Positions 25,349-31,104 of a stretch of 64,000 nucleotides of DNA are shown here, piece by piece; position 1 is the stretch's first letter, and each line of letters begins with the position of its first letter. Source of the stretch: Terriglobia bacterium (GTDB lineage: Bacteria; Acidobacteriota; Terriglobia; JAIQFV01); NCBI GenBank assembly GCA_020072965.1, contig JAIQFY010000018.1, positions 1 to 64,000 on the forward strand, given 5' to 3'. The notes under the pieces are model-generated. The model was not told where the DNA came from. It searched no databases and was given only the letters and a program-made list of their open reading frames with translations. A program made the position numbers and the translations under genes.

Positions 25349-25622
25349 TATTTTGTTCCGCGAGCCATTAGATGGAGGCAGCGGGCAATTGGTTTGCTTA
25401 TGATCTTATGCTAGCACGACCGTTTGCCAATCGGCACCATAAAAGTTATAATAAGAGCCAATTCCGACACCACCCGCGCCATTGGAAATGCCACTGGACC
25501 TCGCTATTTATCTATCGTTGCCGCGAAGAACAGGGCTCCGGCGGATGGGCTCCGGGAACGGTGAGGTTGATATGGCGATGCGTTCTCTCAGGAGTTTAGA
25601 ACCCCAAAGCGATCTTGTTCTT

Positions 25623-26687
25623 ATGAGAACACTATTCGGAATCCTGGCCGCGGTCTTACTGAGTGGCACGTTGACCCTCGCCCAGAGCAAGACGCCTCCG
25701 CCGGAGGCGAAATCAGACCAATCGAAGATGCCCCGGATTGTGGTCACCGTGAGGAAGGTGGTCGTGCCGGTCACGGTCAAGGACGGCAAAGGACATCTGA
25801 TCAACGATCTGAAAAAAACAGATTTTGAAATCCTGGAGGACGGCGTGTCCCAGGAGATCTCGGATTTCACGACTGATCCCCGGGCCCTCAGTGCGATTCT
25901 CCTGGTGGACACCGCTATGTCCGGACGCGCGGAACGGCTTCTTGGCGAGACCTTGACTTCACTCACCGAATCGTTCAGCGAGTTTGATGACCTGGCCGTG
26001 TACACCTTTGAAGACCGCGTGGATAAGCTGGTGGGATTCGGAACCAACCGGGATATCGCTTATACCAAACTTAAAAAGATGGTGGGAGCGAGCGGCTCCA
26101 ACTCCTCCGTTCCGGGAGGGCCCATTTACGGCGGCGGGCCCCCTTCCATCAATGGACGCCCTATGGATGTGGGCCCCCCGCCGAATTATGGCGCCTTAAA
26201 ACCTCCCCTCAAACGGATCACGGACGCGATCTTTGCTGCGGCCATGGACTGCAAGAATCAGCCTAAAGACCGGAGAAAAGTCATCCTCGTAATTTCTGAC
26301 GGGAATGACACGGGAAAAAACGAGGCCAGTTACCAGGGCACGCTCCGTCTGCTGCTCGATAACGACATCGCGGTTTATGGCATCAGCAACGACGAGGCTC
26401 CCCTGTTGCGGCATGTCGAGATGACCAATGTGATGCCCAAGTTCGCGGCAGATACCGGGGGAAGCATGTTCTCTTCGTTGAAGCGCGAGACCCTGGAGAA
26501 AATTTATCCCGCCCTTACCGAGCAAGTGCGCAACCAGTACGAACTGGCCTACACGCCCAAGCGGGAGACTGATGACTCCGTCTTCAAATCGATTGAAGTC
26601 AAAGTGAATCGCCCCGGCGTCCGTGTCATCGCGAGGCAGGGTTACTATTCGGTATCTGTCGTAACGCCGACTCAGGAATCAAAATAG
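25623..26687 (+). CDS. VWA-domain protein, VWFA-related acidobacterial type (divergent paralogue)
   Basis: Signal peptide MRTLFGILAAVLLSGTLTLAQ (start refined from 25482); VTVKDGKGHLINDLKKTDFEILEDGVSQEISDF; C-terminal YELAYTPKRETDDSVFKSIEVKVNRPGVRVIARQGYYS. Confidence 0.87.
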   Translation: MRTLFGILAAVLLSGTLTLAQSKTPPPEAKSDQSKMPRIVVTVRKVVVPVTVKDGKGHLINDLKKTDFEILEDGVSQEISDFTTDPRALSAILLVDTAMSGRAERLLGETLTSLTESFSEFDDLAVYTFEDRVDKLVGFGTNRDIAYTKLKKMVGASGSNSSVPGGPIYGGGPPSINGRPMDVGPPPNYGALKPPLKRITDAIFAAAMDCKNQPKDRRKVILVISDGNDTGKNEASYQGTLRLLLDNDIAVYGISNDEAPLLRHVEMTNVMPKFAADTGGSMFSSLKRETLEKIYPALTEQVRNQYELAYTPKRETDDSVFKSIEVKVNRPGVRVIARQGYYSVSVVTPTQESK

Positions 26688-26966
26688 ATTTCCACTCGCG
26701 CGCCTCTCAACATACCGATTTGACGCTTCCGGATTTTGTGCGTGTCCTTTGAAAACCTCCTCAATCGCCACTCAGCCACCCTTTGAACGACGCGCACAAC
26801 TTCGGGAAGAGCGCCAATTTTGCCGCATCCAAGGCGCGTGTCCGCATGGACGTTCCCCCCACCGTTGAGCGGTTCAACCGTTCGCTTCGCAGATGAAATC
26901 GCGTCGAGAAAATTTTTTTTCGCGTTTGGCAGCGCCTGATTTTTTTCGCAACACTCTATTTTTTTC

Positions 26967-26995
26967 TTGACATTGAATTACCAAGACACTATACA
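26967..26995 (+). promoter_or_regulatory. Near-consensus sigma70 promoter
   Basis: TTGACA (26967-26972), 17-nt spacer, TATACA (26990-26995); T-tract immediately upstream. Confidence 0.75.
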
Positions 26996-27071
26996 ATGAA
27001 GCAATTCCTGTATTTGCCGCAAGATGTTGTAAGCGGCAAGCAGGACGAATCCTAGAATTGGAGGGAATCGC

Positions 27072-27134
27072 ATGAAGAAAAGCGCAACCAAGAAAGCACC
27101 GAAGAAAAAGGCAGCAAAAAAGAAGAAGAGATAA
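27072..27134 (+). CDS. Lys-rich 20-aa micropeptide
   Basis: MKKSATKKAPKKKAAKKKKR*; GGAGG Shine-Dalgarno upstream (TTGGAGGGAATCGCATG); bracketed by a promoter and an intrinsic terminator. Absent from the ORF track. Confidence 0.6.
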   Translation: MKKSATKKAPKKKAAKKKKR

Positions 27135-27166
27135 GATTCTTATCGGAAGAGTTATTGACTTGAATG

Positions 27167-27203
27167 TGGGGAATGTCGAAAGATATTCCCCATTTTTGTT
27201 TTT
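27167..27203 (+). terminator. Rho-independent terminator
   Basis: TGGGGAAT-GTCGAAAGAT-ATTCCCCA followed by TTTTTGTTTTT. Confidence 0.85.
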
Positions 27204-27680
27204 GGGAACAGCACTGTCCAACAAAACTCCAGGCAATTCGCCTTAATTATTTGGGGGAGCGAGAGCACAGGATTGAAATGGGAGTGTTCGATTTCACTTA
27301 TTGTCGTTCGTCAAGCCGGCTTCCCTAATCATCGCTGCTCGTCTTCTCTGTCACCGCGTAGTGTACAATCTCAAATGTGAAATTTCAGATCGTTCCAGCC
27401 GATGAGGGGAAGGCTTGGACCCTCGTCGCGATCATTTCGTGCCCTTGTCTGGCGGCCCGCTCTATGAGCTTCTCAAAATTCTCGAGATCAAGAGTTGCGA
27501 GAAACCGGATTTTACAGGGGTTCTTCGAGTCTTGAGATGACCCCGAATAAGAGCCATCCCCTAAGCAATTAAATCTCTTGGAATTTTAATTGGACAGCCC
27601 TGTTTTTGGAAACAGCCCACGATCCCTCCGCGCCACGGCATCCCCTTTCCGGCTTCCCTCCCGCGTGGCGCGGGTTCGAT

Positions 27681-30665
27681 TCACTCTCCTTCAAAGGCTG
27701 GACAGACTGGCAGGAAATCACATTGAGGACAGAAGAAATTCCGTCGAGGCGGAAATGAACGGCGCCGAATTTCGCGGGCGATTTGCAGGATCGTGTCCCG
27801 ATCCAACTCGAGCTGTGCGGCGGTGCGCTCGGTGGTGATCTTCTCCCCGTTCTCGAGATTGTAGAAAGACAGACTCGCCGGCCACAAGTGAAAGGACTCG
27901 CGGCATGCCAGCGCATACACGGAGAGCTGCAAACTCCGATCCGCTTCCTTCTGGTCTTTCGGCCGGCCCGTCTTGTAATCAACGAGCTCGACGCGCCCTT
28001 CCACGTCTTTGTTCACCTGGTCGACGCGGCCCATGACGATGACGTCGTCAATCGGAAACTGGAACTTTTTCTCCTGCCCCCATACGGAGACGTCCAGATG
28101 AATGTTCTTTTCGTAAAACCGGCGCAGTTGTTCCAACGCGCTCGTTCGGTACCGGTCCTCCTGGTACTTATCTTCAAACCCCACCGACCGCCGCCAGCGG
28201 AGAGCGAGATACTCCTCCATCCTTTCCGCCGGAAACACTCCCTCCTCCTGTTTCCAGACGAAGAACTGCCTCACACACTCATGCAGGATGGAACCCACGG
28301 TCAGCGCGGCGCTGGGCCCCCCGGAGAGCTTGTAGACGTGCCCGAATTTGTATTGCATGGGACACGTCTTGTAGGTCTCCATCGAAGAGGCACTCAGCCT
28401 TAATTCTTCTCCGGGGACGCCGGGGTCGACCGTTGGCGCAGACGCATTGCGAAGAGCCCAGAAAGGAAGCCGGGAATTCACCACGGACGCCTCCGCCGCC
28501 GACGGGTCCAGTGAGAGTTCGTTGGCCAGATCTTCCCCCGAAGGATTCATCTGACTGACTTTCAAATCGGCGTCGGCTCCCGGCCCATCGCGCTGAATGT
28601 CGCTCACAAATTCCGAGAGCTTCCACCGGGGCTTGGTGACCGCGGTCAGGATCAGGATCTCCTGCGCCCGCGTCATGGCGACATAACCCAGGCGCCGCTC
28701 CTCGTGGATATGCGCCCCGGGCGGGAGCAGGCCTTCCTTTCTCAGAACCTCGGGGAAAGGCAGCAACGTGGACCGCTGCCTGGCTGGAAAATAGTTCTGC
28801 GTCAAGCGAAGCACGAACACGACGGGAAATTCCAATCCCTTGGCGGCATGAACGGTCATCAGTCGGACTGCGTCTGCCTCCAGGGATTTGTCTACTTCCT
28901 CGGAAATGTCGCCGCCGGCTTCGAGGTAAAAGTCAAAGTACTGCAGGAAGTCCTTGAGTTGGTCTCCGGGATATCTTTTTTGCCATTCCTCCACAAACTT
29001 CAGGACGCGCCGCACCGGCATTCCGACTTCTTCTTCTCGATATGCCTTGACATCGCCCAGATGGAATTGCCGCGGCGCATCGCCTCCCTGAAGTTCCGCG
29101 GCACAGACTCTCACGGCCGACAGGGCCGATCGCTTCAACAGGGATTTCCGCAGGGATTCCACCCACGCAACAAAGGGGGCAAGTTTTATCTTCAATCTGC
29201 CTGAGGCCTCATTGTGCACGATCGCTTGAATCGCTTTATACAGGGACGAATGCCTCTTCCCACCAAGCCAAGGAGGGTGGGCAGCCCAGTCCGTCATGAC
29301 CATGAACTCCTCTTCCGTCAATCCCCACTTCGGCAATGCGAGCGTGCGGCCGCAGCAGATATTGTCGCCCGCTTTTACCAGGAAACGCATGGTCGCCAGG
29401 AGATCGCGGACTGCGGGATCGAGGAGCACCGACAGACCCACGACTCGAAAGGGAAGGGCCCGGCGCCGTAATGCCCTGATCAGGAGTTCCCGATGGGCGT
29501 GTGCGCGATAGAGCACGGCCATGTCGCGAAAGGCTCTTCCCATCGCATTCAATCGCTCAATTTCGGCGGCTACCGCGAGCGCCTCATCATCCGGCTCCGG
29601 AGCGATGACGAGCGGCACTGGTTCACCTTCCCCCTTTTCCGTCCACAGATTTTTGTCCGGATCGAAGCGGTCGGGATTGACCGCGATCAGTTGGTTGGCC
29701 CGTCGCAGAATTCGTCGCGTCGAGCGGTAGTTCCGGTTCAGCTTCAGCTGGTGAAACCGCGGAAACTTCCGGGCAAACAGAGTGAAGCTTTCCGAAGAGG
29801 CGCCCCGGAATCGATAGATCCCTTGATCGTCGTCGCCCACCACGGTAATGTTCTGATGCGATTGCGCCAGCAGGTGGAGCAGTTCAATCTGGGCGACGTT
29901 GGTGTCCTGAAACTCATCCACCAGGATGGCGCGATATCGATCCTCACAGGCCTGTCGGATCTCCGGATGCTCCTGCAACAACCGGACCGCCGAGGCGATG
30001 ACATCTCCGAACGTTTGGGCCCCGGCATCTGCGAGCAGTTGTGAAGCGACCTGGTAAACCCGGGCGATCTCGCGCTCCCGCTTCAACTGCAGCTCCGCAT
30101 CAGCGGATGACACCCGGCCGGCCTCCACTTCGCCCTGGAGTTGCTCCTCGAGGCCCTCGACATAGGCCTCATAGTCTGCGACGCTCACCAGTTCATCGTG
30201 GGCCCGGGACATGAACTCAATGAGATTATTCAGAAACTTTCCCGGCTCGGCGTTCTTCCAGAACACTTCAAGCTGAAGGCTATCCAGGTGACGCCGCAAC
30301 AATATCCAGAAATCAATGTTGTCGAGCAGTTGGCTCTTTTGACTTGGCCGGAGTCGTACTGACTGCTCTTCAACCAATTTCAGCGCAAAGGCGTGGAAGG
30401 TATGCACCCCGACTTCCCCGCTCCACGAGTCCCCCAGGCGTTGCCGTATCCGGCGGGCCATGACTTCGGTCGCCCGTTCAGTAAACGTCAGGGCCACGAC
30501 GTTCTCGGGACGCAGGCCTTCCACGCCACGGAGTAAAAACGCGACCCGTTCCGTGATCACCCGCGTCTTTCCAGTGCCGGCGCCCGCGATGATCAGCAAC
30601 GGGCTGCCCTCGTGGGTGACAGCCGCTTCTTGCTCGGGATTAAGCCGAATCTCGGGACTTGACAT
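27681..30665 (-). CDS. UvrD/PcrA-like helicase fused to a PD-(D/E)XK nuclease with probable Fe-S cysteines
   Basis: LLIIAGAGTGKTRVITERVA (Walker A), ILVDEFQDTNVAQ, VGDDDQGIYRFRGA, TVHAAKGLEFPVVF; C-terminal VGSILHECV...ELVDYKTGRPKD and CPQCDFLPVC. Confidence 0.92.
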   Translation of the reverse strand: MSSPEIRLNPEQEAAVTHEGSPLLIIAGAGTGKTRVITERVAFLLRGVEGLRPENVVALTFTERATEVMARRIRQRLGDSWSGEVGVHTFHAFALKLVEEQSVRLRPSQKSQLLDNIDFWILLRRHLDSLQLEVFWKNAEPGKFLNNLIEFMSRAHDELVSVADYEAYVEGLEEQLQGEVEAGRVSSADAELQLKREREIARVYQVASQLLADAGAQTFGDVIASAVRLLQEHPEIRQACEDRYRAILVDEFQDTNVAQIELLHLLAQSHQNITVVGDDDQGIYRFRGASSESFTLFARKFPRFHQLKLNRNYRSTRRILRRANQLIAVNPDRFDPDKNLWTEKGEGEPVPLVIAPEPDDEALAVAAEIERLNAMGRAFRDMAVLYRAHAHRELLIRALRRRALPFRVVGLSVLLDPAVRDLLATMRFLVKAGDNICCGRTLALPKWGLTEEEFMVMTDWAAHPPWLGGKRHSSLYKAIQAIVHNEASGRLKIKLAPFVAWVESLRKSLLKRSALSAVRVCAAELQGGDAPRQFHLGDVKAYREEEVGMPVRRVLKFVEEWQKRYPGDQLKDFLQYFDFYLEAGGDISEEVDKSLEADAVRLMTVHAAKGLEFPVVFVLRLTQNYFPARQRSTLLPFPEVLRKEGLLPPGAHIHEERRLGYVAMTRAQEILILTAVTKPRWKLSEFVSDIQRDGPGADADLKVSQMNPSGEDLANELSLDPSAAEASVVNSRLPFWALRNASAPTVDPGVPGEELRLSASSMETYKTCPMQYKFGHVYKLSGGPSAALTVGSILHECVRQFFVWKQEEGVFPAERMEEYLALRWRRSVGFEDKYQEDRYRTSALEQLRRFYEKNIHLDVSVWGQEKKFQFPIDDVIVMGRVDQVNKDVEGRVELVDYKTGRPKDQKEADRSLQLSVYALACRESFHLWPASLSFYNLENGEKITTERTAAQLELDRDTILQIAREIRRRSFPPRRNFFCPQCDFLPVCPAFEGE

Positions 30666-31104
30666 ATTCTCCTTGCCCCCTTCCTTTGGAGGGGGCACAT
30701 GAGGCCCTCGCCTCTTGGTTGGTTCTCATAAGAATCGAAGGGAAAATATAATCGGTTGTGTTTCTATGTACAATTCAAATATCCCGCCCGCTTTCCGCGT
30801 GTGGCGATGGGATGGGGGAACCCTTTGAATGGGGCCCCTCCCCACGGGCCTTGCTGTCTATCCCGTTTCTTTACAATTTTTCAGGGAACATGATAGAATT
30901 TCGTGTAATTTGAGCGTTGTTTTTGTTCTCATTTCCCGCATCCCGATGGATCCGCACGGGCTCTCCGGATCGGAATTGGCGGATCAACTCTGCAACGTTG
31001 ACACCGGATCAGCGAGGCCAAAGCAAGGAACAGTCGAGCTCGCTTTCATCATCAGCACGATCAATTCGCGAAACAACCGAGAGAAGAATTAAGGAGTTTC
31101 TGTC

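Follow-up and report, generated by a model that had tools for sequence, protein, structure and literature searches.

Does a lysine-rich reading frame of only 20 codons, lying alone between two long genes, represent a gene in its own right, and if so does it act through its peptide, its transcript or both? The question is raised by a locus in a Terriglobia genome (contig JAIQFY010000018.1), of which we analyzed a stretch of 64,000 nucleotides, referred to here as the window. On the forward strand at 26967-27204 we find a complete small transcription unit in which promoter, leader hairpin, Shine-Dalgarno sequence, micro-ORF and terminator are all present. A -35 box TTGACA (26967-26972), with a T-rich tract directly 5' of it (26960-26966), is separated by a 17-nt spacer from a -10 box TATACA (26990-26995), all as read from the sequence. 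A 5' leader hairpin (UCCUGU..UUGCCGC / GCGGCAA.GCAGGA; 27006-27045) forms 13 pairs with a folding energy of -19.1 kcal/mol (z = -2.9 against shuffled sequences), and its arms TTGCCGC (27014-27020) and GCGGCAA (27033-27039) enclose a loop of 12 nt. A Shine-Dalgarno GGAGG (27060-27064, likewise read directly) is followed by the micro-ORF (27072-27134), which starts at an ATG at 27072, ends with a TAA at 27132-27134 and encodes the 20-aa peptide MKKSATKKAPKKKAAKKKKR, conserved in a genome of the same genus (G001) and another of the same family (G002). The unit is closed by an intrinsic terminator (27166-27204) with a 12-pair stem at 27166-27193, a 4-nt loop and a T tail reaching to about 27204. 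The initial annotation had these elements right, in position as well as in description.

The unit lies between an upstream ORF for a von Willebrand-type protein (25482-26687, forward strand) and a downstream ORF for a UvrD-like helicase-nuclease (27681-30698, reverse strand), both named by sequence inspection. The gap between them had been described as about 1 kb and otherwise empty; its length is indeed 993 bp, but about 400 bp of it are taken up by a separate repeat element. This element (27207-27604) lies on the helicase side of the unit. Imperfect inverted repeats of 20 nt, AACAGCACTGTCCAACAAAA and TTTAATTGGACAGCCCTGTT, delimit it, 11 other diverged partial copies are present elsewhere in the genome (65-90% identity), and the gap is shorter at its site in both G001 and G002. 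These features mark it as a MITE-like element distinct from the micropeptide unit. Gene finders would probably pass over the unit itself, which is short.

We consider it likely that this locus is a stand-alone, single-copy gene for a polycationic, polyanion-binding microprotein, whose transcript would have a second role as RNA in the Acidobacteriaceae. As judged by sequence comparison, the gene is autonomous, its Lys/Ala-rich peptide and its 5' hairpin are both under selection, and its RNA is present without the ORF in one clade.

The follow-up proposed in the initial annotation, a search across the Acidobacteriota, recovered a conserved promoter, ORF and terminator, with changes in the ORF biased towards synonymous ones. 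By DNA similarity, the unit is present in G001 at 96% identity with an identical ORF, and in G002 at 83% identity over 177 nt with one amino-acid change, the other changes being mostly at third codon positions. In both genomes it adjoins the two genes that flank it in the window. Weak DNA matches in other families, once read, proved to be similar units with unrelated leader sequence that share the same layout of TTGAC(A/T)-17-TATA, hairpin, Shine-Dalgarno, Lys/Ala-rich ORF and terminator. Two weak matches (L005 and L006) were rejected as Lys-rich parts of larger proteins.

A promoter-to-ORF pattern occurred mainly in Terriglobia, both in 396 genomes of the phylum and, among the matches listed, in a scan of 85,462 species at one genome per species, where counts are to be read as at least the number given. 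The matches listed belong to Acidobacteriaceae, Bryobacteraceae/Solibacteraceae and unclassified Acidobacteriota. Those examined in Ruminococcus, Clostridia and Saccharibacteria were mostly the starts of longer proteins and were taken as unrelated. A stricter pattern (promoter, Shine-Dalgarno and Ala-Thr-Lys-Lys) matched 89 of 299 genomes of the class and its reversed control matched none. We also observed, on a deltaproteobacterial contig (L104:6380-6489), a promoter-like site, a Lys/Arg-rich small ORF of ~19-28 aa and a terminator-like hairpin; this ORF possibly encodes a small basic protein with no relation to the unit.

Within the Terriglobia, the unit is present in the window's own family (f1), a Bryobacteraceae-type family (f5), the Acidobacteriaceae (f9) and family f7, with a variant unit in f4 (L009) and f10 (L257) and a single candidate match in f6 (L322). 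Using only the leaders, in the segment spanning TATA to ATG, we built two covariance models and ran them against 151 genomes of the class. The first found 28 genomes, all of them Acidobacteriaceae, and the second found 28, of which 27 were of the Bryobacteraceae-type family, with one copy in each genome in both cases. E-values from these home-made RNA models are rough. When the leader model was applied more widely, to 301 genomes of the Acidobacteriaceae, 255 had the unit, almost always in a single copy, and these belonged to 75 of the 80 genera. Distinct units were counted instead of loci where relevant, some loci and genome entries being one and the same genome. These surveys indicate that two large soil families of the Acidobacteriota have the micropeptide unit in almost all their genomes, as a single copy.

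The promoter and leader are conserved in form. In the 159 units counted, TTGAC(A/T) is followed by a spacer of exactly 17 nt, in part because the searches were built that way; in 155 of 160 units, at least five of the eight nucleotides preceding TTGAC are T. The hairpin region was left unconstrained by the search patterns. The position of the 5' hairpin is constant, and its sequence differs between Acidobacteriaceae and Bryobacteraceae-type leaders. Helix 1 is 95% paired in the Acidobacteriaceae leaders, with both sides changed in 5 of 7 pairs, and the Bryobacteraceae-type helix is 86% paired, with both sides changed in 5 of 8 pairs; slid controls were only 20-52% paired. This covariation indicates that the hairpin is maintained by compensatory change.

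A Lys/Ala-rich ORF follows 22 of the 28 matches to the Acidobacteriaceae leader model and 27 of the 28 to the Bryobacteraceae-type model. Our first omega-like value had used units picked partly by their peptide pattern, and the estimate was redone on these leader-only units. Between nearest neighbors, substitutions at codon positions 1, 2 and 3 numbered 38, 19 and 139, and 118 synonymous changes were counted against 18 non-synonymous ones (omega-like value 0.05, obtained by plain counting over nearest pairs rather than from a likelihood model). The same bias was seen in a larger set of units selected in part by peptide pattern. The substitutions point to strong purifying selection on the micro-ORF, which evolves as a protein. 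Together with the promoter, 5' hairpin and terminator kept across several Acidobacteriota families, this bears out the view of the locus as a self-contained transcription unit. Across 143 units the peptides consist of 50% Lys, 35% Ala, 6% Thr and 5% Pro, and they range from 13 to ~120 aa, mostly 13-38 aa, with a mode of 20-23. Given such variable length at constant composition, selection acts on composition and not on length, as in disordered polycationic tails. Some Bryobacteraceae-type units (L087, L134, L245 and L247) share the leader and have ORFs enlarged to 76-120 aa by Lys/Ala/Pro repeats, and they form a naturally occurring series of peptide lengths.

A different picture is seen in two related genera, g42 and g44. 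The leader model finds the unit in 21 of 28 g42 genomes and 16 of 19 g44 genomes, some at weak E-values, and none of these matches has a Lys/Ala ORF downstream. In this clade (36 genomes) the promoter, hairpins, SD-like GGGAG, GGCAA motifs (AGGCAAA / AAAGGCAAC) and terminator are kept, and the start codon and ORF are lost. In g42 the sequence at this site is GGGAGCGCAGGCAAACGCAACCAAGGCAAAGCA, as against GGGAGAATAGGCAAATGGCAACCAAGAAAGCA in ORF-bearing relatives: the position of the start codon is occupied by ACG, and the greater part of the ORF is gone. Among 20 distinct g42 units, the linker from Shine-Dalgarno to terminator is 90% identical, the promoter 82% and the hairpin region 70%, versus 33% in the upstream and 38% in the downstream flank. 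The g42 linker lacks a start codon in 17 of 20 units and differs in length by 1 nt, and is therefore non-coding. In g44 the promoter, hairpin and terminator are also kept, and the linker is less conserved (51%); most members carry GCGGTGGCAAAGGCCGC, possibly a small hairpin with a GGCAAAG loop. Basic frames in some of the g44 units (for instance, with a GTG at linker position 31-36) were rejected, since they have no Shine-Dalgarno at a suitable distance and run into the terminator. Two isolated genomes, G300 (Acidobacteriaceae) and G456 (Bryobacteraceae-type), also lack the ORF. As a separate observation, the ORF-less RNAs of the two related genera (L225-L229 and L285-L317) lie beside rsmE and carry repeated GGCAA motifs.

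Of 99 ORF-bearing Acidobacteriaceae units, 78 likewise have the GGCAA motif directly behind the stop codon, versus 9.9 expected from shuffling; of 60 Bryobacteraceae-type units, 3 have it, versus 3.2 expected, relatedness being ignored in both expectations. The window's unit lacks it. The conservation of the ORF-less units of g42 and g44 suggests that the transcript is functional as an RNA, in the Acidobacteriaceae at least. For the window's own family a second RNA role is possible. The suggestion of a dual-function sRNA in the initial annotation thus gains support from the g42 and g44 clade, which keeps the RNA without the ORF, but finds none in the family from which the window comes. It had also held that an RNA conserved without its ORF would speak for an sRNA only; we see this pattern in one derived clade and the two isolated genomes, and the ORF is kept elsewhere. 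The peptide is not indispensable, because the g42 and g44 clade, G300 and G456 live without it.

These observations give some weight to the alternative that the locus is primarily a regulatory small RNA, its ORF being a secondary, lineage-dependent add-on or a control of RNA lifetime. The persistence of the remaining elements in g42 and g44, the contrast between the g42 linker and its flanks and the excess of GGCAA after Acidobacteriaceae stop codons all speak for this reading. However, outside this clade the ORF is under strong purifying selection and has many internal synonymous changes, so that in those lineages it is the protein that has been preserved, and we see no conserved unpaired motif common to the families. 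In a tree of RsmE, whose gene adjoins all 36 ORF-less loci as it does many ORF-bearing relatives, the ORF-less loci cluster (100/99) with ORF-bearing rows on both sides, under a midpoint root only. This grouping suggests that the ORF was most likely lost once in g42 and g44 with the RNA retained, and the nesting of the ORF-less clade within ORF-bearing lineages makes the ORF older than its loss. On balance we regard a primarily regulatory RNA as unlikely. It is conceivable, though less likely than not, that the unit descends from an ancient bifunctional transcript of the Terriglobia, at once mRNA for an H1-tail-like microprotein and regulatory RNA, that became purely noncoding in one clade through loss of the start codon.

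The constant presence of rsmE next to the ORF-less loci could also mean that the unit is a cis-acting leader of its downstream gene, rsmE in some clades. This is quite improbable: genomes of the window's family, of the Bryobacteraceae type and of the Edaphobacter type have another neighbor, usually convergent, and the unit is closed by a terminator. By sequence inspection, the flanking genes vary by clade (acetyl-CoA acetyltransferase, RsmE, helicase-nuclease, serine dehydratase and a methyltransferase), and 97 of 136 loci have a convergent gene downstream. We therefore take the unit to be autonomous and not to serve as an attenuator or as the constant leader of an operon, both of these readings being ruled out for the window by the orientation and variety of the downstream genes. 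In outline, a short Lys-rich ORF followed by a terminator does recall a lysine attenuator, in which translation of a leader peptide rich in Lys codons controls termination before a lysine gene. Amino-acid attenuators share with our unit a short ORF rich in one residue and then a terminator; here, by contrast, the downstream gene is not conserved and lies mostly on the other strand, as it does in the window, which refutes an attenuator at this site. No lysine gene is among the downstream genes recognized, and neither lengths of 13 to ~120 aa nor the conserved Ala and Pro fit, so we give this reading practically no credence. A chance ORF in an AT-rich intergenic gap, which would be short, of low complexity and without Rfam or Pfam match as this one is, is refuted by the conservation of protein and whole unit over several families and by the empty reversed-pattern control.

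For the polycationic microprotein that we favor, we propose the following mechanism. Hairpins at the 5' end are a feature of stabilized bacterial mRNAs, and a near-consensus sigma-70-type promoter combined with such a hairpin and a terminator would be expected to give a short, stable and abundant mRNA. From its composition, the peptide is predicted to be a disordered Lys/Ala/Pro chain, similar to an H1 tail without a folded domain, that would bind DNA, RNA or polyphosphate by charge. In the Acidobacteriaceae the same transcript may double as an RNA by way of GGGAG, the repeated GGCAA motifs and the hairpins, a role that would be the sole remainder of its functions in g42 and g44. Terriglobia are among the commonest soil bacteria, and this strongly selected single-copy gene, nearly universal in two of their families, falls outside every family in the libraries that we searched. 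Trypsin-based proteomics would hardly detect the micropeptide, since trypsin digests Lys-rich chains into small fragments. Should it prove to be an abundant polycation of the H1-tail type, it would constitute a new minimal factor of the nucleoid or of polyphosphate. The ORF-less clade is a natural setting in which to test how the RNA acts once the peptide is gone. It also provides an example of an mRNA turning into a noncoding RNA, which, if true, would be a naturally documented conversion of mRNA to sRNA.

How does the family compare with known systems? None of 4227 Rfam covariance models matched the window at gathering score, and the 11 loci searched at E up to 1 gave no relevant match. Pfam and NCBIfam gave no match for the window's peptide. 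The best-scoring member, of 38 aa, reaches 15.2 bits with Pfam HC2 (PF07382), below the gathering cut-off of 40 bits, and a 38-aa member gives only a sub-threshold H1-like match in NCBIfam. A literature search on the micropeptide gene and on small RNAs of Acidobacteria returned no mention of the gene. The nearest protein likeness is to the H1-like proteins of bacteria, namely chlamydial Hc1 and Hc2, the tails of Pseudomonas AlgP and PhaF and the H1-like proteins of Burkholderiales. The micropeptide has in common with them a make-up of Lys, Ala, Pro and Thr, disordered repeats (KKAAKK and AAPAKK, for example) and a length that varies freely by repeat number, and the HC2-type Lys/Ala-rich repeat composition is found in the family (143 units). 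A precedent for the proposed binding is AlgP, whose KPAA-repeat tail is histone H1-like, binds DNA and is needed for the spacing of polyphosphate granules (PMC9239181), and Hc2 varies in length by Lys-rich repeats (PMC2848022). Unlike these proteins, the micropeptide is mostly 13-38 aa in all, lacks a folded domain, falls below the Pfam and NCBIfam cut-offs and has its own fixed, conserved transcription unit.

The second likeness is to dual-function small RNAs such as SgrS/SgrT, SR1/SR1P and VcdRP (the last described in PMC8672173), for here too a small protein is encoded on a single short transcript bounded by a promoter and a terminator of its own, and there is evidence for an importance of the RNA beyond its ORF. 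As in these systems, the ORF is selected as a protein at the sequence level (the omega-like value of the leader-only units). Conserved ORF-less RNAs in g42 and g44 suggest that the RNA may act independently of the ORF, though none are seen in the window's family. The unit differs from these systems in that the micropeptide is a low-complexity polycation and that the RNA function is supported only in one derived clade and, weakly, in the Acidobacteriaceae. The family, which as seen here falls within the formal definition of neither group, resembles the H1-tail proteins and perhaps also the dual-function RNAs.
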